DNA of 47,710 nucleotides, from contig JAJDTT010000134.1 of the NCBI GenBank assembly GCA_022827025.1, forward strand, positions 1 to 47,710, read 5' to 3'. The notes under the pieces are model-generated. The model saw only the letters and a list, made by a program, of their open reading frames with translations. It searched no databases and was not told the DNA's origin. Source of the stretch: Acidobacteriota bacterium (GTDB lineage Bacteria; Acidobacteriota; UBA6911; RPQK01; JAJDTT01). Below, piece after piece: positions 38,418 through 47,079 of this stretch. Made by a program: the position numbers and the translations under genes. Position 1 is the first letter of the stretch; each line of letters begins with the position of its first letter.

Positions 38418-38528
38418 TTGTGATCCCGTTAAGCCAGCCTTCCGTGCTCGGCACCGATGACGATACCTGATGTGATTGAACTGCCTCTCTCACTCCGTCG
38501 CCGTCTACCGGCAGCCGGTCTAGGGAGT

Positions 38529-38960
38529 CTATTCGTCACAGCCGTCGCAGGCATAGTGATCGGGGGCGTCTATCACGTAATCCGTGAAATAAATTCGTTC
38601 ATTGTCGTCTGTACGGTCACAATCCGCCCCTGTACTCACTTCCTGCGATTCCCCCTTCCGCAGGTCCCACACTGTGAATTGTTCGAGGCCGGTCCACGTG
38701 CCGTTACACTTGATTCTCGCGTTCAGTGATACACGCTCAAGGTGTGTGTTCCCGCCTTCGACCTCAACATATAAATACCCATATCGGGACCACCCGGAAA
38801 CGACTTTGAAATCGAACTCCACGTCAGGGGCCACCGTGCAACGGAACTCTCTCTCTTCGTTATCCGTCGGACCCAAGTCCCGACACAAATACCAGTCCGT
38901 CCCGAACGAAACACTGGAGATGAGCAGAGTCAGCAATAACATACAAACCGACTTGATCAT
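38529..38960 (-). CDS. Small secreted protein, unknown
   Basis: The product is about 143 residues from the ATG at 38960 (ribosome site AGGTGG). A signal peptide (IKSVCMLLLTLLISSVSFG) is followed by a Cys-containing mature part. That part has WYLCRDLGPTDNEEREFRCTV, EFDFKVVSGWSRYGYLYVEVEGG and ACDGCDE at the end, so a disulfide-bonded beta fold is likely. GC content is visibly lower than in the core genes. The ATG overlaps the stop of the upstream gene, making a coupled pair. No family is recognised. Confidence 0.65.
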   Translation of the reverse strand: MIKSVCMLLLTLLISSVSFGTDWYLCRDLGPTDNEEREFRCTVAPDVEFDFKVVSGWSRYGYLYVEVEGGNTHLERVSLNARIKCNGTWTGLEQFTVWDLRKGESQEVSTGADCDRTDDNERIYFTDYVIDAPDHYACDGCDE

Positions 38961-39391
38961 TTTCCCACCTTCGGTTTTCTCCACCATTCCTTAGAAATCC
39001 CTTTTGGGTTGTTTTTCAATTCCTGAACTACACCTCGAATGTAGTTGCAAGTGTCCTTCACGATATTCGAGGATGACATAACACCCCCACGGTAAGCCAT
39101 TAAATCCCCCTGGGAATTCCACAGGAGTAAATAGTGGCGGTGTTCGTACTCATACTCTACGACAAAGTCTGCCGCTTCCTGTTTGATTGTGGGGACAATT
39201 CCGGCACATTCCTTCCGCTGCAACAAATGGATTGTATACTCGTACCGCGTGGGACCTTCAGTTCCAAAAGGAATATCGGTGACAGCTCCGATATAGAGCC
39301 GCACCAAGGAAGAATCGCCCGTCTCTGCCCCAAACACAACCCCGACGGCCAAGGCGGCTAGTGCCAGTGTGAGAATCAGTTTGCGTTTCAT
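38957..39391 (-). CDS. Small secreted protein, unknown, partner of 38529-38960
   Basis: The 144-residue product has a signal peptide (KRKLILTLALAALAVGVVFGAE) after a well-placed AAAGGA site. The mature part includes SLVRLYIGAVTDIPFGTEG, YTIHLLQRKECAGIV and YRGGVMSSSNIVKDTCNYIRGVVQEL. Two Cys residues may pair. It is AT-rich for this genome. The stop overlaps the ATG of the next gene. A perfect -10 box TATAAT (minus strand, 39458-39463) lies 67 bases upstream, without a clear -35. The role is unknown. Confidence 0.65.
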   Translation of the reverse strand: MKRKLILTLALAALAVGVVFGAETGDSSLVRLYIGAVTDIPFGTEGPTRYEYTIHLLQRKECAGIVPTIKQEAADFVVEYEYEHRHYLLLWNSQGDLMAYRGGVMSSSNIVKDTCNYIRGVVQELKNNPKGISKEWWRKPKVGK

Positions 39392-39757
39392 TGGTTTATT
39401 TCCTTTGTATTAGCCAAGAAGCCTGTCCGCGTCTTCCGTGTTTCCATCATGGCTAGCATTATAACGGAAATCTATGACACTTCTTCGGCTAGTTTGTTAT
39501 ATAATTCCCCTTATCAAACCAATCAATGAACTCGGAGACCCCTCCTCTGATTTCCTCTCCTCAACATACATTCTCCTTCCAGAGTACGATTGCATCCGAA
39601 CTGACATCTACACTGGACCGCTTTTCTCCGAACTCCCGACGAACTGCCGGAGCCGCCGGACGTCTATCAGCACTCCTTCTATTCCCCTGGTGAATACCAG
39701 ATTTCGTCACCGAGATCCGTCTGATGATCTGACGTTGCACTTCTCCACCCATTCCCA
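39392..39757. other. Intergenic, low-GC, no gene recognised
   Basis: No convincing gene lies here. The segment is AT-richer than the rest of the window. A TATAAT hexamer on the minus strand (39458-39463) may be the -10 element of the secreted pair. Another TATAAT-like string lies on the plus strand near 39498. The open frames in this stretch have irregular codon use and no recognisable motifs. Confidence 0.5.
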
Positions 39758-40678
39758 CTACCTTCGATACCGGGAGATCAACGTCTCCAGATCATTCAGG
39801 ATCTGATTCCCCATTTCCGGCAACACGATCACCTTTCGGAGTGAACCAAAGTGGATCTCCAGGCACTCCATGAGAACCCGACCAATGGCCTTCTCGCTCA
39901 CCGAATTCCGGACCATGCTTTTCGTCACAAGCTCCTCCATCGCCTGCTCCTTCGCCTCGAACCAGCCCATCAACCGATCCAAACTCCACTCTCCGGCACG
40001 GATGGAGTTGTATACCTTGGAATCCCGATCCAGTACCAGATGACCCGAACTCAATATCTGCTCACACTCCAGCATGAGCCGGATCAGGTGGTATCCGTAC
40101 TTCACATCGTACCCGTACTTTTCGATCGACTCCGCCCGTTTCGGATTCCTCTTGGCCGTTTTCTTCTTGATCTTGGCCAGCTGCGCACAGGCGTACCCGC
40201 GGAACGTGTGATAGGACCGTTTCGACAGGAACAGTCGACGGTTACTCCTCAGATGCTCAAATACGGATGAGGACTTCGTCACACACCGCCTCGGGGCAAA
40301 CAGGGAGTCGAGCATATTCGGATTGTTCTGCATGGTCAGGTGGAAGTACTTCACGATACCGTAGATCACGAAGTCATACGTCAGACCATGCTCCTTGTAC
40401 TCGACATGATGGCGCTGTAGCTGCTCGAACGACTCCGGCTTTCGACCGAATCCAGGGATGTATCCCGTGAGATGAGGGAACACCATCTCCTTACGTGGGA
40501 TCGTGAATCCAACGATGTCCCGGTCCGAGCTATTCCGATCCCGGCACCCGTACGCCTCGCTTCCCATGATGCACTCGTACATCAGATTGTCCGAGACATA
40601 CCTCAGTGCCGGAGGGAGTTCAATCAACCCCTTCCGGACAAATTTGACAAAGTGAGAACTATTCGCCCCTTTGCTCAT
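39758..40678 (-). CDS. RlaP-like DNA polymerase beta family nucleotidyltransferase
   Basis: The 306-residue protein has the nucleotidyltransferase motif MGSEAYGCRDRNSSDRDIVGFTIPR: a GSxAYG turn, then a DxD-like SDRDIVG. A long helical C-terminal domain follows. This matches the RlaP family (PF10127-like), found with RNA repair genes and in phages. Family members are predicted to add nucleotides to RNA ends, but activities are mostly untested. The GC content is near 50 percent by eye, lower than in the core genes. Its ATG overlaps the stop of the 84-residue gene upstream (ATGA), so they form a pair. Confidence 0.75.
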   Translation of the reverse strand: MSKGANSSHFVKFVRKGLIELPPALRYVSDNLMYECIMGSEAYGCRDRNSSDRDIVGFTIPRKEMVFPHLTGYIPGFGRKPESFEQLQRHHVEYKEHGLTYDFVIYGIVKYFHLTMQNNPNMLDSLFAPRRCVTKSSSVFEHLRSNRRLFLSKRSYHTFRGYACAQLAKIKKKTAKRNPKRAESIEKYGYDVKYGYHLIRLMLECEQILSSGHLVLDRDSKVYNSIRAGEWSLDRLMGWFEAKEQAMEELVTKSMVRNSVSEKAIGRVLMECLEIHFGSLRKVIVLPEMGNQILNDLETLISRYRR

Positions 40679-40929
40679 TGATCCTCCTGATCCTTCTGGA
40701 CCCGATACTCCGGACCATAGAACTGGAACCCGAAGATCGATATCAGATCCCGAGCCTTACGCATGAACCTGACTGTCTCGACTTCCCCTTTCTCATACTC
40801 CATCCACTTCCGGGCAGCCGTGAGATAGTCCGAATCCGACTTCGGAAACGTGTTCGGATCACCCTGTTTCCGATAGAGCCTCGCGGTAGACAACAGACCC
40901 TCCTCAAAGTTCCTTTTTGCCTGGCACAC
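40675..40929 (-). CDS. Small protein paired with RlaP-like nucleotidyltransferase
   Basis: The 84-residue protein begins MCQAKRNFEEGLLSTARLYRKQGD. It is mostly helical and charged and contains KSDSDYLTAARKWMEYEKGEVETVRFMRKARDLISIFGFQFYGPEY. There is no signal peptide. Its stop overlaps the start of the nucleotidyltransferase gene, so co-translation is likely. Upstream, eight bases before its ATG, begins the 40937-41106 inverted-repeat element. It could be a substrate-binding partner or an antitoxin-like regulator; neither is shown. Confidence 0.55.
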   Translation of the reverse strand: MCQAKRNFEEGLLSTARLYRKQGDPNTFPKSDSDYLTAARKWMEYEKGEVETVRFMRKARDLISIFGFQFYGPEYRVQKDQEDQ

Positions 40930-40936
40930 AGTGTCC

Positions 40937-41106
40937 CCCTGGGAGTCTGCGCGGTAGAAATGATCGTAGCGAGAAAGTGGAGACTCGAGGCCAGATTTTC
41001 ACGATTTGGAGGTGCATAGTTGTTCTATTCGCCGAGAAATCGGGGAAATATGGACCGATTCTACGCTTTCGCAGTAGATTAATTTCTGCCGCGCAGGCTC
41101 CTGGGC
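40937..41106. mobile_element. MITE-like element with R4 inverted termini
   Basis: About 170 bases are bounded by imperfect inverted repeats of about 40 bases. The left end reads GGGAGTCTGCGCGGTAGAAAT and continues to GCGAGAAAG. The right end (41066-41106) is its inverted counterpart, ending CGCGCAGGCTCCTGGG. The internal 80 bases hold no ORF. The termini are the same sequence as repeat R4 at 10765 and the hairpin at 12401. No transposase is in the window. Confidence 0.65.
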
Positions 41107-41535
41107 AAAGCAGTCCACTTCGACCGACTCGGCAAACCAGCCATCTCCGTGACCTTGCCGCACATGTACTCGAAATTGCAGAAGGGGACAGTCACTTTCG
41201 CGCGCGTGCGTGGTGCGTGCCGCCAATTGGGGGGACACGGGGAATTGGGTCCGGCGTCGAATCGGAATTCCGTAGGGGCACCCCTTGTGGGTGCCCTCTT
41301 CCGTCCGAACCGACCCACACCCGGCCCACCGACGGGACTTGGCATCGGAGCAACGGGGTGGCCCCCGGTCGCTCTCGGTTGCCTGGGGAGGGCGACCACA
41401 AGGGTCGCCCCTACGGCCGGGAAACCGGTCCGCGTCGGCGATCAACCGGTTCCTGCTCCCCGGGGTCGTCCCTGCGAACGGGAAGGAGACCAGAACCCCC
41501 ACAATGCTTACGCCGAGGCTGCCTTCCGGCATCGC
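41107..41535. repeat. Repeat-rich gap (R3, R1 and a GGAGCAACGG unit)
   Basis: No gene is seen. R3 lies at 41178-41199. R1 lies at 41271-41296 (reverse) and 41390-41416 (forward), about 90 bases apart and in opposite orientation. Between them, near 41345-41380, is the GGAGCAACGGGGTGGC unit also found at 436-466. The gap separates the MITE-like element from the 3' end of the primase-helicase-nuclease gene. Confidence 0.7.
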
Positions 41536-44358
41536 TCAACGGGGCCGACTTCTCTGGGCCAGAGCGCGCAGGATCTCGTCGAGCACCGTCTCCAGTTCGG
41601 CGCCGACGTCTTCGGCCAGGAACCTGAGCACGAAGTAGCCGTGTCGCTGCAGCAGGGCGTCCTTGCTGCGGTCCCGCCGATAGGCCTCGCGGTCCGCCAG
41701 ATGGTGGGCGCCGTCCAGTTCCACGACCAGCCGGGCCGAGGGGTCGAGGAAATCGACTTCCACGTGGTTCTGCCCGAAAAACGGAATGGGCAACCGTTCG
41801 TTCAACCGGAATCGACCTCGGGTTTCGGGCAGACTTTGCAGCCGACGAAAGAAGAACGCTTCGCTGGAGCTGCGGGCCCGCGCGGCATCGGGACTGCCGT
41901 CCGGCGATGCGGTCGTCAGACGACGGAACAGGTCGCCGAGCGGTGGGTCCACGCCATCCCGTGACAGACGCCTCACACTCCCAGCGTACCGCTGTTTCCA
42001 GTCTCCGTCGGCGGGAAGAGGGACGGACGGAGGCCAACCGGGAACCGCGCTGGCCGGCGGCGAGACCTTGTATCCAAGGGACTCATAGCTGCGGCGGCGC
42101 CTGTCGAACATGCGGGACAACATCGGTACGTCCAAGTCGGCATAGTCGTACACTTGGACCTGCCGCTTGGAACGGCGCCTGCGATGCAACCGGCCGACGT
42201 ATTGCGTGATGGTCCCACGCCAGGACACCGGCATGGTGAGAAACAACGTATCGAGCCGCGGGTTGTCGAACCCTTCTCCGACGAACCGGCCCGTCGCCAA
42301 CAACACCCGTCCGGCGGCGTTCTCGGCGGCGCGCGCCAGGGCGGAGGCGAGTGGCTTCCGTCTCATGCCTCCCTGGAGCGACACGACGTCGAGACCGTCG
42401 GCCCGGAGCTTCGCGGCGAGAACCTCGAGATGCCCGACTCGTTCGGTCAGCACCAGCGGCGCCCGCCCGGCGCGGACGCTCTCCGCCACGTCCGCGCAGA
42501 TGAGAGAGTTCCGGGGCTCGTCGGCAGCCAATTGACGCAGGATCCGCTGGAACTCGACGCGCTGATCGGCGTCCGGTTCTCCCTGGACGCGAAAGCCCGT
42601 CGGCCGGACGAGCACGTCGCGGGTGAACGGCGTCGCCAGTGCCTGCAGCCCGGCATCCACCCGGCGCCGGACGGGACCGCACTGCATGAACACGATGGGG
42701 TGATGACCGTCCTTCCTCGTCACCGTCGCCGACAGTCCCGCGACGTACTTCGCCTTGGCGCGACCGACGGCCAGCTCGAAACCGCGGGCGGGAACATGGT
42801 GGCACTCGTCCACGATCACGAAGCCGTAGTCCGCGACGCAGTCGTCCACCTCGCCCCGGCGCACCAGGCTCTGCATCATGGCGACATCGACCCTTCCGGT
42901 GAGCTTCCTCCGTCCCCCTCCCAGGCGACCGATCTCCCCCTCCGCGATGCCCAGAAACTGGGACAACCGGGCGACCCACTGATCCAGCAACTGTTGGCGA
43001 TGGACCATGACCAGGGCGTTGACGCCGCGCTCTGCAATCAACCATGCAGCCACGACGGTCTTCCCGAACGCGGGGCCCGCCGCCAGAACGCCGGTGTCGT
43101 GCGCCAGCATGGCTCTCGCAGCCGCTTCCTGTTCCGGACGCAGGGCGCCGCGGAAGCGGAGCGAAAGAGGGACTCCCGAGTTGCGCTCGTCCCTGATGGC
43201 GGTCCGGATCTTGTACCGGGCGAGCAGTCCTTCGACCGGTTCCAGGCAAACCCTTGGAAATCCAATGAATTTCGATCCATGCTCCACGCAGTCGATGATC
43301 CTCGGCTTGCCGAACGTCGACAGGCGCATCGCCTGCGCCCGGTAGAACTCGGGATTCTGAAATGCGGCCAACCGCATGAGCGCCGCGACGATGCCCGGCG
43401 GCAAGGCGTCCTTGGCGACGTAGATCCGATCGCCGAGAACGATCTCAACAAGATCGGGAACGGGACCGCCGATGGGCGGAAGCGGAAATCGACGGGACGG
43501 CGGTGCAGCCCACGGCGCGTCGGCGAAGGCGTCTTCGTGCCCCACCACCGCCGCGACTCCCATGACGGGTCCCTGCTTCTCCGCATGGGACACGATGGAC
43601 TCCGCCTGGGCCGCAGGGATCCGGCGAAGCTCCGAGAGGAACGCCCACTGGTCCGGATACGGCTTCAGCTCGGAATCGACGAAGACGCTGTTGCCGTTTC
43701 GACGCGGCCCGTGCTGCAGCGGAAGGGCGATGAGATTGCCGAATCCGCCCCGGGGCAAGGTATCCTGATTCGGAAAGAACCGGTCGTAGGAACGAAAACC
43801 CAGGTCCGGTCGCTCCTCCATGGCCTCGGTAAGAATCAGGGACGCCAATCGTCGAGCCAGACCGGCCGGCAACGCCTCGTCGAAAAACATCCACGCGTGG
43901 CCACCGTTCCCGGATCGGGACCGTTCCAGCGCCACGGGGACTTCGAGCCTCCTGCTGGTCTCGAGAAAGGCCGTTGCGTCATCGCGCCAGCTCCCGCCGT
44001 CGAAATCGACCGCCAGGAAATGACACGAATCGTCGAGCAGCATGGGGTAGACCCCCATGGTGAACGGCTTGCCCCGAGGGTCCGCCCCCGAGAGATGCCA
44101 GCGGACGACCTCGTCCGTCACCGCAAGGAATCGGCGGTTGGGACAGTCGACGCACTTGATCCTCGGTTTCTCGCACACGCCGGGCAGCCACTCGTTGGAA
44201 CAGGCCGGCGCATAACCGGCCCGGCCCGACCGGAGACTCTCGAATCGGCGTGGATAGACGTCTTCTCGGCCCCTTAATAGGGACCGGAAGAGTGCGATCT
44301 TGCTTTCCGGAGTGGACCGGCGGTGGACGTCCGGGACTCGACGGTTTCCGATTCTCAT
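41536..44358 (-). CDS. TOTE-type primase-helicase-nuclease fusion protein
   Basis: This 940-residue protein joins three enzymes. Residues 20-260 match the archaeo-eukaryotic-type primase of TOTE systems: a Cys4 knuckle (Cys53, 62, 69, 72 in PACSNEW and KCVDCPNRRF), the metal motif LAVDFDGG (115-122) and SGNGGHAWMFF (149-159). Residues 400-740 are a superfamily 2 helicase with Walker A AAGPAFGKT (426-434), DECH (517-520), GLSAT (541-545) and the arginine-finger motif QYVGRLHRRRR (719-729). Residues 830-940 are a DUF559/Vsr-like PD-(D/E)xK nuclease, with Asp869, Glu880 and Asp882 in VEVDFLDP and VVELDGAHH. TOTE proteins are predicted defence or conflict factors acting on nucleic acid. The frame is intact. 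Confidence 0.88.
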   Translation of the reverse strand: MRIGNRRVPDVHRRSTPESKIALFRSLLRGREDVYPRRFESLRSGRAGYAPACSNEWLPGVCEKPRIKCVDCPNRRFLAVTDEVVRWHLSGADPRGKPFTMGVYPMLLDDSCHFLAVDFDGGSWRDDATAFLETSRRLEVPVALERSRSGNGGHAWMFFDEALPAGLARRLASLILTEAMEERPDLGFRSYDRFFPNQDTLPRGGFGNLIALPLQHGPRRNGNSVFVDSELKPYPDQWAFLSELRRIPAAQAESIVSHAEKQGPVMGVAAVVGHEDAFADAPWAAPPSRRFPLPPIGGPVPDLVEIVLGDRIYVAKDALPPGIVAALMRLAAFQNPEFYRAQAMRLSTFGKPRIIDCVEHGSKFIGFPRVCLEPVEGLLARYKIRTAIRDERNSGVPLSLRFRGALRPEQEAAARAMLAHDTGVLAAGPAFGKTVVAAWLIAERGVNALVMVHRQQLLDQWVARLSQFLGIAEGEIGRLGGGRRKLTGRVDVAMMQSLVRRGEVDDCVADYGFVIVDECHHVPARGFELAVGRAKAKYVAGLSATVTRKDGHHPIVFMQCGPVRRRVDAGLQALATPFTRDVLVRPTGFRVQGEPDADQRVEFQRILRQLAADEPRNSLICADVAESVRAGRAPLVLTERVGHLEVLAAKLRADGLDVVSLQGGMRRKPLASALARAAENAAGRVLLATGRFVGEGFDNPRLDTLFLTMPVSWRGTITQYVGRLHRRRRSKRQVQVYDYADLDVPMLSRMFDRRRRSYESLGYKVSPPASAVPGWPPSVPLPADGDWKQRYAGSVRRLSRDGVDPPLGDLFRRLTTASPDGSPDAARARSSSEAFFFRRLQSLPETRGRFRLNERLPIPFFGQNHVEVDFLDPSARLVVELDGAHHLADREAYRRDRSKDALLQRHGYFVLRFLAEDVGAELETVLDEILRALAQRSRPR

Positions 44359-44372
44359 CGACTCAGGGATTT

Positions 44373-44583
44373 CTATCCTGATGTTCCGATTCTACACGGC
44401 AATCCAGATGCCGTGACTTCCCGCACCTCGTCGAGTATGGGCGCGAGGACGACAACCCGCCCGACATGCCGAGCCGCCAGTTCCAGAATCTCCGACTCAG
44501 ACTCGCGGTAGCCGATGAGGCGGTCGTCGACATAATCGTAAGGTGTCGCGCTTGGTCTCCAGCACCAGCTTTACCCCAATCAT
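44373..44583 (-). pseudogene. Frameshifted PIN-domain gene
   Basis: The minus strand from an ATG at 44583 reads MIGVKLVLETKRDT. A one-base shift is then needed to continue as YDYVDDRLIGYRESESEILELAARH, then GRVVVLAPILDEVREV, stopping at 44373. Together these resemble a PIN-domain protein whose first motif (LVLDTN) has changed. The frame is broken and the protein is short, so it is not functional. It sits just upstream of the primase-helicase-nuclease gene. Confidence 0.55.
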
Positions 44584-44605
44584 GCGAGATGCCCCGTCGC
44601 CCTTT

Positions 44606-44634
44606 TTGGGAAACCGGCAGTTCGGAGGTATATT
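44606..44634 (+). promoter_or_regulatory. Sigma-70 promoter of the MntA-HepT operon
   Basis: TTGGGA (44606-44611) and TATATT (44629-44634) are separated by exactly 17 bases. The inferred transcript start lies near 44641, about 60 bases before the mntA-like ATG at 44702. Confidence 0.6.
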
Positions 44635-44701
44635 GAAAACAATCGAACCGTTTCGGTCGTTTCACGGCTGGGTGGGACCATTGTGGTCGAGTCGGTGTGT
44701 C

Positions 44702-45157
44702 ATGGCGGGCAAGTCAGAAAGGACGAACGTGAACCGGGAGCTTCTCGCGCGGCTCGCGAATGCTCTGGAGGGGCGTGAGGAGATCATGGAAGCCTACCTT
44801 TTCGGATCTCGGGCCCGGAGGCAGGCACAACCGCACAGCGACATCGATGTCGCGGTCTACATTGATGAGGAATGCGCGCACGACGGAGCGTGGGGTTATC
44901 AGTCGCAGCTCACTACGGATCTCATGGTGGCGCTCGGCACGAATGACGTGGACGTCGTCGTGCTCAACCGAGCCTCTATTTTGTTGTACCACCGGGTTCT
45001 GCGCGACGGCGTCCGATTTCTCTCCCGGGATCTCCGGGCGACGACGAACCGTGCGGGTCAGGCCCTTTCGCGTTACTTCGACTTCCTGCCACAACTGGAA
45101 AAGATGGACCGCGCACGCCGATATGCCGCGCGCGCCGGTAACGAGGTCCGGCGGTGA
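44702..45157 (+). CDS. mntA: MntA-like minimal nucleotidyltransferase antitoxin
   Basis: The 151-residue product has the minimal nucleotidyltransferase motif YLFGSRARRQAQPHSDIDVAVYI (GS followed by DxD). The third acidic residue is in NDVDVVVLNRAS. In characterised MntA-HepT pairs this enzyme AMPylates HepT on a Tyr and so silences it. The C terminus RARRYAARAGNEVRR is basic. The last codons overlap the GTG start of the HepT gene (GTGA). A promoter lies at 44606-44634. Confidence 0.85.
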   Translation: MAGKSERTNVNRELLARLANALEGREEIMEAYLFGSRARRQAQPHSDIDVAVYIDEECAHDGAWGYQSQLTTDLMVALGTNDVDVVVLNRASILLYHRVLRDGVRFLSRDLRATTNRAGQALSRYFDFLPQLEKMDRARRYAARAGNEVRR

Positions 45158-45594
45158 CTCCGGGCCGTCCGGACCGCCGTGTAGTGAATCGGCGGCTCAT
45201 GGCACTACGGCGAGCGGTCGCCATCCTGCGCCGGCATGCCGGATGCACTCCCGAGGAACTCCGCTCCGATATCGATCGCCGTTGGGCCATCGAACACGGT
45301 CTTCAGCTCTCTGCGCAAGCCGCCCTCGATGTCGCAACTCATCTCGGCTCCGCGTTGGGATACGATCCGGCAACGTACGGATCTTCCATCGACAGCCTGG
45401 TCGAGGCAGATGTGCTGCCGCCGAATTTCGGGGCGCGTTTCCGGCAGATCGCCGGTTTCCGGAACGTGCTCGTCCACGGCTATCTGGATGTCGACCTCGA
45501 CCTGATCGTCGAGATCCTCTCCGAACGACTCGATGACTTCGAGGAGTTCGCGCGCCACATCGAACGGTGGCTCAGGGAGTCCTGGCAAGAGTGA
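45154..45594 (+). CDS. hepT: HepT-like toxin (DUF86)
   Basis: The 146-residue all-helical HEPN protein carries the R-x4-H-x-Y motif as RNVLVHGY near residue 102-109, the RNase active site and AMPylation target of HepT toxins. The start is a GTG overlapping the MntA stop. The N terminus contains LMALRRAVAILRRH. It is intact and therefore probably functional. A further small membrane-protein gene overlaps its stop. Confidence 0.85.
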   Translation: MTPGRPDRRVVNRRLMALRRAVAILRRHAGCTPEELRSDIDRRWAIEHGLQLSAQAALDVATHLGSALGYDPATYGSSIDSLVEADVLPPNFGARFRQIAGFRNVLVHGYLDVDLDLIVEILSERLDDFEEFARHIERWLRESWQE

Positions 45595-45770
45595 GCTGGT
45601 TTCGACGGCACAATGATGCTCTGCACATCACTCTGTTGGGCTACTCCGGGGTGATCGCTCTGCCCATGACCATCGTGATCTGGTGGGGTGTCGAGGGACT
45701 GGTTCTGTTTCTGCTGGGAGGAGCCGCCATGGGCTTGGCCGGAGAGAGGTTCGCGGGCGGAGGCCAATAG
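45591..45770 (+). CDS. Small membrane protein coupled to HepT
   Basis: This 59-residue frame starts at a GTG overlapping the HepT stop (GTGA), the same junction used between MntA and HepT. It begins SWFRRHNDALHITLLG. It has two hydrophobic segments (ITLLGYSGVIALPMTIVIWWG and GLVLFLLGGAAMGLAG), so two membrane helices, and ends ERFAGGGQ. Nothing comparable belongs to the standard MntA-HepT pair as I know it. A chance ORF cannot be excluded. Confidence 0.55.
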   Translation: MSWFRRHNDALHITLLGYSGVIALPMTIVIWWGVEGLVLFLLGGAAMGLAGERFAGGGQ

Positions 45771-45800
45771 CCCGAATACTGAACGGAAAGATCGTTCGGA

Positions 45801-45838
45801 GTGTCCGAAATCGGACAGTTTGTCCCGATTTCGGACAC
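45801..45838. promoter_or_regulatory. Two tandem palindromes forming a long hairpin
   Basis: GTGTCCGAAATCGG (45801-45814) pairs perfectly with CCGATTTCGGACAC (45825-45838). Each half is itself a palindrome of the form TGTCCGA-two bases-TCGGACA, the second with one extra C. The site is 31 bases after the coupled membrane protein gene and has no T run. It could be a pair of operator sites, a hairpin protecting the operon transcript, or a recombinase target. Confidence 0.6.
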
Positions 45839-46022
45839 TTGCAACCGACTCCCCGGACGGCGAGAGGGACGGGAGCGTGTCGGCGGAAAAGAGGGGCGGC
45901 AAGAACGTCCCCTTCATCGTCGTCCCTCCCGGTCGTTTGCAAATGGACGAATGTTTCCTGGTTCCGGCGACGCCGGATCAGGTTGATGACCGGTCTTCCC
46001 TGGACACCCTTGGACGAGAAAT

Positions 46023-46068
46023 TGGTGGAGCTGATGGGATTCGAACCCACGACCCCCTGAATGCCATT
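46023..46068 (-). other. 3' half of tRNA-Ala (GGC), probable attachment-site scar
   Basis: On the minus strand the 3' part of a tRNA-Ala is present. It has anticodon-loop sequence ATGGCAT (anticodon GGC), variable and T arms with GTGGGTTCGAATCCCAT, acceptor strand CAGCTCC, discriminator A and CCA (46023-46025). Matching stops at about tRNA position 29; the 5' half and its D arm are missing. tRNA 3' ends are classical integration sites, so this is probably an island att copy. Confidence 0.75.
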
Positions 46069-46843
46069 CATCTAATATGGTTGTCCAAGCAAGTCTTATC
46101 CAATCCAATATAGTCCTTCACCTGACTGATATAACTGTACTTGTCAGTCTACAATCGTTTTGTTCCGTCTTAGGAGCTCTCCCACCGGACATGAGCCGGC
46201 GAGATCCTGGAAGAAACAGGGGTGATCCAGGAGCGGGGGTTTTCCTACCCCCGCGTCCGCATCCTGTTGTCCCTGGCCATGGTTCCCGGTTGGTATGAAA
46301 GAGAGTGCCTGAAAGAGGCCGCCTATGGGGGGAGGGGGACAGGAAAACCCCCTTCCTGACACTCCTGCGTGTTTCTCAGAAGTCCCCCACCACCGGGCCT
46401 CCGGCATGATCCCGCGAGAAACTGGACGGGGATTGTTGTCCATCAGCGGCGCCCACCGCGTTGCCGCTGTCGAACGACTCGTAGGGGCGACCCTTGTGGT
46501 CGCCCTACCTCCGAACGGCGCCACCGTCCGCCGGCCATTGCTTGGGCACTACCGAACCGGGGGGGTGGAGCGGCGACTCAGCCGGGAAACGATGCGACCC
46601 CGCGGGCACCCGCAAGGGGTGCGCCTACGGTCATCGGGGACTGGAAGTTTCAAAGCGGACAAATCTGTGCAGGAAATCCGGGATCGATCCTTTCCTGGCT
46701 CCTTCGGAGTTCGGGTCAGGATAAGCGGTCGAAAGACCTTCAAGTCCCTCTATCGAACCGGTGGCCGACGACGACGAATGAAGGTGGGCATCTGCCGGCT
46801 CTTTCTCTGGCGGATGCCAGACCTCAGGCCTTCAACTTGCTGA

Positions 46844-47079
46844 GTGCTGTCCAGCGAGGTGAAGACCCGGCGGAACAACGTCGGCAAGAGCGCAGGGCGA
46901 CCGAGGTTTTTCTCGCCCCATTCGTTTCGCGTCCTGGTGGTCACGGATCTGCTTCCCGAGAATGTGCCGCCGGATGACGTCCAGTACTGGCCGGCCACGT
47001 CCACCCGCACACGACGCAGATCTACGACCGGCGGCGCCGGCGCGTCACACGCAAAATCGTTGAGCGGTTTTCGGTCTGA
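46844..47079 (+). pseudogene. Frameshifted tyrosine recombinase (integrase) C-terminal fragment
   Basis: The frame from 46844 contains FFSPHSFRVLVVTDLLPENVPPDDVQY, with the HxxR catalytic box (SPHSFR). After one lost base near 46987 the sequence continues in another frame as LAGHVHPHTTQIYDRRRRRV and TRKIVERFSV, stopping at 47077-47079. GH and the nucleophile Tyr of TTQIYDRR are the last catalytic positions. The N-terminal two thirds are gone. It is the only recombinase trace in the window. Confidence 0.75.

Follow-up and report, generated by a model that had tools for sequence, protein, structure and literature searches.

Remnant of a mobile element at a tRNA-Ala(GGC) gene in an Acidobacteriota genome

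Features of the locus

The window, which is the entire contig C6 (47710 bp) of a draft genome (G000) of 5.33 Mb in 318 contigs, carries near its right end a displaced piece of tRNA-Ala(GGC), a stretch of AT-rich DNA, a dispersed repeat and remnants of two recombinase genes (Table 1). The right end itself interrupts a Sel1-repeat gene that resumes on C199, the contig that bears the whole tRNA.

Table 1. Coordinates of the features at the right end of the window
Feature	Position	Strand	Evidence
Original chromosomal flank downstream of tRNA-Ala, with nucleotidyltransferase/HepT pair; outside the element	44738..46020		Identity to G001-G003; Pfam HepT-like, Polbeta
Displaced 3′ part of tRNA-Ala(GGC), nt 29-76 plus 2 bp; element-chromosome junction (attR)	46021..46070	-	100% over 50 bp to C199:4909-4958
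Remaining att-arm/integrase-upstream DNA of the element	46071..46174		AT-rich, GC 0.385
Composite dispersed repeat in place of integrase promoter, start codon and first ~21 codons	46175..46655		Copies on at least 20 other contigs, 81-95% identical
P4-like tyrosine integrase remnant, arm DNA-binding domain, about codons 22-106 of 400	46655..46893	+	82% DNA identity to L079 integrase (G003:C24)
XerC/D-like recombinase C-terminus, last 64 codons	46911..47079	+	84% DNA identity to L083:7726-7896 (G001:C30)
Sel1-repeat gene, 3′ part; cargo, continues on C199	47276..47710	-	Pfam Sel1 3.5e-37; 47-bp in-frame overlap with C199:6538-6584

The tRNA fragment extends from the anticodon stem (5′ strand) to the CCA and two further bases, with its CCA end pointing left, towards the chromosome. 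The same 50 bp recur at L003:4909-4958, within a whole tRNA-Ala(GGC) called by ARAGORN at C199:4881-4956, and the att core corresponds to the anticodon stem-loop. A 40-bp core of the tRNA, with up to 3 mismatches allowed, occurs in exactly two places in the 5.33 Mb, the window and C199:4917-4956, and its reversed control gave 0 matches over the same 5.33 Mb. The first-pass annotation had described a 46-base 3′ fragment and proposed to look elsewhere in the genome for a whole tRNA-Ala(GGC) with identical 3′ bases; the fragment is real and the whole gene is present on C199, the exact copy being 50 bp long rather than 46. Its reading of the site as the scar of an element integrated at tRNA-Ala(GGC) agrees with this 50-bp pair, in which one tRNA is whole and the other a 3′ part.

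Between the fragment and the integrase remnant, positions 46111-46175 are 74% identical to the stretch that separates the att site from the integrase at L079. The dispersed repeat that follows had been overlooked in the first pass. Its modules are also found in G001-G003, several copies lie at contig ends, and it holds GC-rich hairpins such as GGGCGACCCTTGTGGTCGCCC.

Empty sites in related genomes

The side of the fragment on which the element lies was tested in three same-genus genomes (G001, G002 and G003). On contig C51 of G003, the backbone of C199 (90-93% identity over 4.6 kb) leads into tRNA-Ala and then, after ~460 bp, into the left flank of the window (segments 45758-45630 and 45582-44738), with no element in between. 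The order is identical on C420 of G002, where the spacing is ~600 bp and the empty site again lies on one contig. These same-genus genomes give the original order as C199 backbone, tRNA-Ala, window left flank; the DNA that follows the tRNA on C199 differs from that of the relatives. Positions 44746-45582 and 45629-45757 are 80-82% and 88-90% identical, respectively, to the DNA that immediately follows tRNA-Ala in G002 and G003. In G001 the same matches sit beyond an insert of 26.3 kb that parts tRNA-Ala from this flank, and left-flank matches are colinear on G001:C36 up to about position 35.5 kb of the window.

Because this flank directly follows tRNA-Ala in G002 and G003, the DNA to the left of 46021 is chromosome downstream of the original tRNA and lies outside the element. 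Since the CCA end faces left, the logic of tRNA islands likewise requires that the element be to the right of the fragment.

The flank includes, at 44714-45594 (plus strand), genes for an MNT-type nucleotidyltransferase and a HepT-like RNase, a likely toxin-antitoxin pair whose DNA from 44738 onward is common to G001-G003 downstream of tRNA-Ala. The insert in G001 (C36:382771-409077, L048 2772 to L049 9078) occupies the same tRNA-Ala site and contains ORFs of 4918 and 1860 aa; a search at its end for a second tRNA fragment or att copy found none.

Extent and cargo of the element

C199 stops 1.6 kb past the tRNA, inside the Sel1-repeat gene, and its end shares 47 identical bases with the end of the window, in frame. 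Read across this overlap, the Sel1-repeat gene forms a complete frame of 313 aa, and the 47-mer is present on no third contig of the genome, even with 2 mismatches. The element thus joined runs from the tRNA of C199 through a membrane-protein gene to the Sel1-repeat gene that is split between the two contig ends, and its GC content is 0.55-0.58 vs 0.65 for the C199 backbone. The membrane protein, which from its sequence likely carries a coiled coil, is encoded by a gene absent from the 20 relatives searched. As the element is divided between two contigs, the join depends on the 47-bp overlap inside the repeat gene, and as the number of Sel1 repeats is not fixed, neither is the exact size of the element, which would be about 3.3 kb plus any collapsed repeats.

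Remnants of two recombinases

The piece nearer the tRNA fragment, which the first pass had missed as a separate integrase N-terminus, changes frame near 46790 (blastx frame 1, then 3). Arm-DNA-bind_3 is recognized in both of its halves (E 0.0017 and 1.1e-5), each singly just below the Pfam cut-off, and its DNA identity to an intact member marks it as the arm-binding domain of a P4-like integrase. That member, L079, encodes a 400-aa protein with Arm-DNA-bind_3 and Phage_integrase domains. In the window, no P4-like catalytic domain with its tyrosine was found, and the C-terminus that adjoins the remnant belongs to another recombinase family.

This second piece resembles L083, an intact XerC/D-like recombinase of 331 aa with Phage_int_SAM_1 and Phage_integrase domains (Pfam). 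The likeness covers the last 64 codons, including the HSFR, GH and TTQIY tyrosine motifs; in the window, however, only this frameshifted C-terminus is present, and the family has no known tie to the tRNA site. One base is missing at 46987, leaving 170 bases vs 171 in the intact homologue (blastx frames 1, then 3). The genome being a draft, frameshifts may in part be sequence errors; truncations could not. A single internally deleted integrase was considered as the source of both pieces and rejected, since the two match different proteins: the N-terminal piece the L079/L074 family, the C-terminal one a distinct XerC/D-like protein of 331 aa. The latter is present intact once (L083 6900-7892 in G001); broken partial copies are numerous in the genus, on contigs of G000, G001 and G003, among them the piece at 46911-47079.

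Much of the earlier description of a dead integrase thus holds: a recombinase C-terminus does lie about 0.84 kb from the tRNA fragment (0.8 kb had been given), the one-base frameshift near 46987 is real, and the gene is inactive. It is not one protein, however. Alignment in the different frames, as had been suggested, recovers the shift at 46987 and assigns the N-terminal remnant to a separate family, so that the dead integrase comprises pieces of two recombinases, of which the C-terminus that had been noticed is the second, XerC/D-like one.

In a small survey of the P4-like family, in which the contig scan returned four relatives, three of them probably identical with the records G007, G014 and G015, the genes of five intact integrases (L074, L076, L078, L079 and L085) all point away from a 3′ tRNA half, with their starts 171-182 bp from its inner edge. 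The remnant in the window keeps this order and orientation, with its start side close to the att site and the spacing stretched by the dispersed repeat. The tRNA halves are tRNA-Ala-like at three of the five loci and of other sequence at two (L079 and L085); the latter can be read as tRNA-Lys from the anticodon region, by eye and not by program call. No intact member of the family and no other close relative of the integrase was found in G000, where the next best match is 26-29% identical. The survey describes a family of P4-like integrases in Acidobacteriota that is tied to a fixed layout, the start codon standing at that distance from the 3′ tRNA half.

Contig C445 of G014 carries on one strand a 5′ half (L075 8073-8115), a whole tRNA-Ala(CGC) (L074 15314-15390) and a 3′ half (L074 2093-2144), 12 and 13 kb apart. 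This arrangement resembles a single tRNA with an island on each side, one island having displaced the 5′ half.

Comparison with known systems

In the tRNA islands collected in Islander, the island is enclosed by a regenerated tRNA and a 3′ fragment downstream of it (PMC4383910), and the anticodon-centred ‘A’ class accounts for 2083 of the 3919 islands (PMC4383910). The locus resembles these islands (PMC4383910) in its co-oriented whole tRNA and 3′ fragment with the element between them, in the integrase sequence that adjoins the fragment and in a core at the anticodon stem-loop. The genome contains both the whole tRNA and its cognate fragment; the placement of the fragment downstream and in the same orientation follows from the empty sites and the contig overlap, the ends being on separate contigs; and empty sites exist in related genomes (G003:C51 and G002:C420). 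The locus differs from Islander islands in that its two ends are split between contigs, in its size of only ~3.3 kb with two recognizable cargo genes, and in its integrase, an N-terminal scrap. Instead of an integrase ORF, the island holds truncated, frameshifted pieces of two recombinases. As the integrase exists only in pieces, the locus is the remnant of a tRNA-integrated island and not an intact island.

Compared with the intact P4-like integrases of Acidobacteriota (Arm-DNA-bind_3, Phage_int_M and Phage_integrase; L079, L074, L076, L078 and L085), the window shares the arm domain (up to 82% DNA identity), the upstream att-arm DNA and the position and orientation beside a 3′ tRNA half. It differs in lacking the start and the core-binding and catalytic domains, and its closest relatives, L079 and L085, are located at another tRNA (read as tRNA-Lys).

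Origin of the remnant and alternative explanations

A mobile element with a P4-like integrase very probably integrated at tRNA-Ala(GGC) and is now a decayed, fixed remnant of ~3.3 kb to the right of the fragment; the att pair, its orientation, the empty sites and the decay of both recombinases are direct observations. That the fragment could instead belong to a dispersed repeat, or be a chance tRNA-like stretch with no tie to integration, deserves hardly any weight. A dispersed repeat does start just 105 bp away, yet the genome has the 50-bp sequence at just two places and it is not part of that repeat, which contradicts the refuting case foreseen in the first pass; in addition, the fragment sits at the exact junction of the empty site, and the relatives of the integrase are all found at such tRNA fragments. 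Very improbable, too, is the version originally proposed, in which an island occupying the window to the left of the fragment, with the fragment at its right-hand end, explains the dense accessory content. Accessory genes are indeed present there, namely a TOTE-type AEP-helicase-nuclease gene and an RlaP-like gene within ~6.3 kb absent from G001 and G003, but the CCA end points towards them, the integrase remnant and the att-arm DNA are both on the right, and the left flank, which matches G001 in the same order as far as ~35.5 kb, directly follows tRNA-Ala in the empty sites of G002 and G003.

An alternative that accepts the same integration but places a larger island between the end of C199 and the end of the window, both broken within Sel1 repeats, is unlikely, if less so than the preceding two. 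It would accommodate the fact that both contigs end within a repetitive gene, and intact relatives can be bigger, with 13 kb between tRNA-Ala and the 3′ half in G014; against it, the 47-bp overlap is found on no third contig even at 2 mismatches, and the join yields one complete frame of 313 aa.

Under the preferred reading of a small decayed element, the attP of the P4-like integrase element would have recombined with the anticodon-loop region of the genome's single tRNA-Ala(GGC) gene. The element would have brought its own copy of the tRNA 3′ part, through which the whole tRNA was rebuilt at one end (C199) and the original 3′ part pushed to 46021-46070. Later, the dispersed repeat would have replaced the start of the integrase, and most of the integrase would have been lost, a loss that would have left the element fixed in place. 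A C-terminal piece of an unrelated XerC/D-like recombinase would have come to adjoin the integrase remnant, and what remains would be a fixed element of ~3.3 kb with genes for a membrane coiled-coil protein and a Sel1-repeat protein. The order of these steps of decay and the original size of the element are inferred. The element is probably immobile; a distant integrase could act in trans. There is a small chance that the two cargo genes of this ~3-kb minimal island, for the membrane coiled-coil and Sel1-repeat proteins, form a functional unit that selection maintained once mobility had gone, or that they were moved by a helper integrase.

The locus is an ordinary tRNA-island remnant, a familiar type of feature at a new location. 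It defines exactly where one tRNA-Ala(GGC) integration in an Acidobacteriota genome begins and ends, and adds nothing new mechanistically. It also corrects the map, in that the accessory genes to the left of the scar, including the TOTE-type conflict-system gene, need another explanation.

Accessory genes to the left of the scar

The TOTE-type and RlaP-like accessory genes are unconnected with the tRNA scar. The TOTE-type gene (41536-44358, minus strand) encodes a 940-aa protein with the AEP primase, helicase and DUF559/REase domains of TOTE systems, and lies inside the ~6.3-kb stretch (about 38430-44738) that is missing from G001 and G003 at this place. The RlaP-like gene (39758-40678) is part of the same stretch. 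At 40939-41105 there is a repeat of ~165 bp, of which about 40 or more copies, mostly 90-98% identical, occur across G001-G003.
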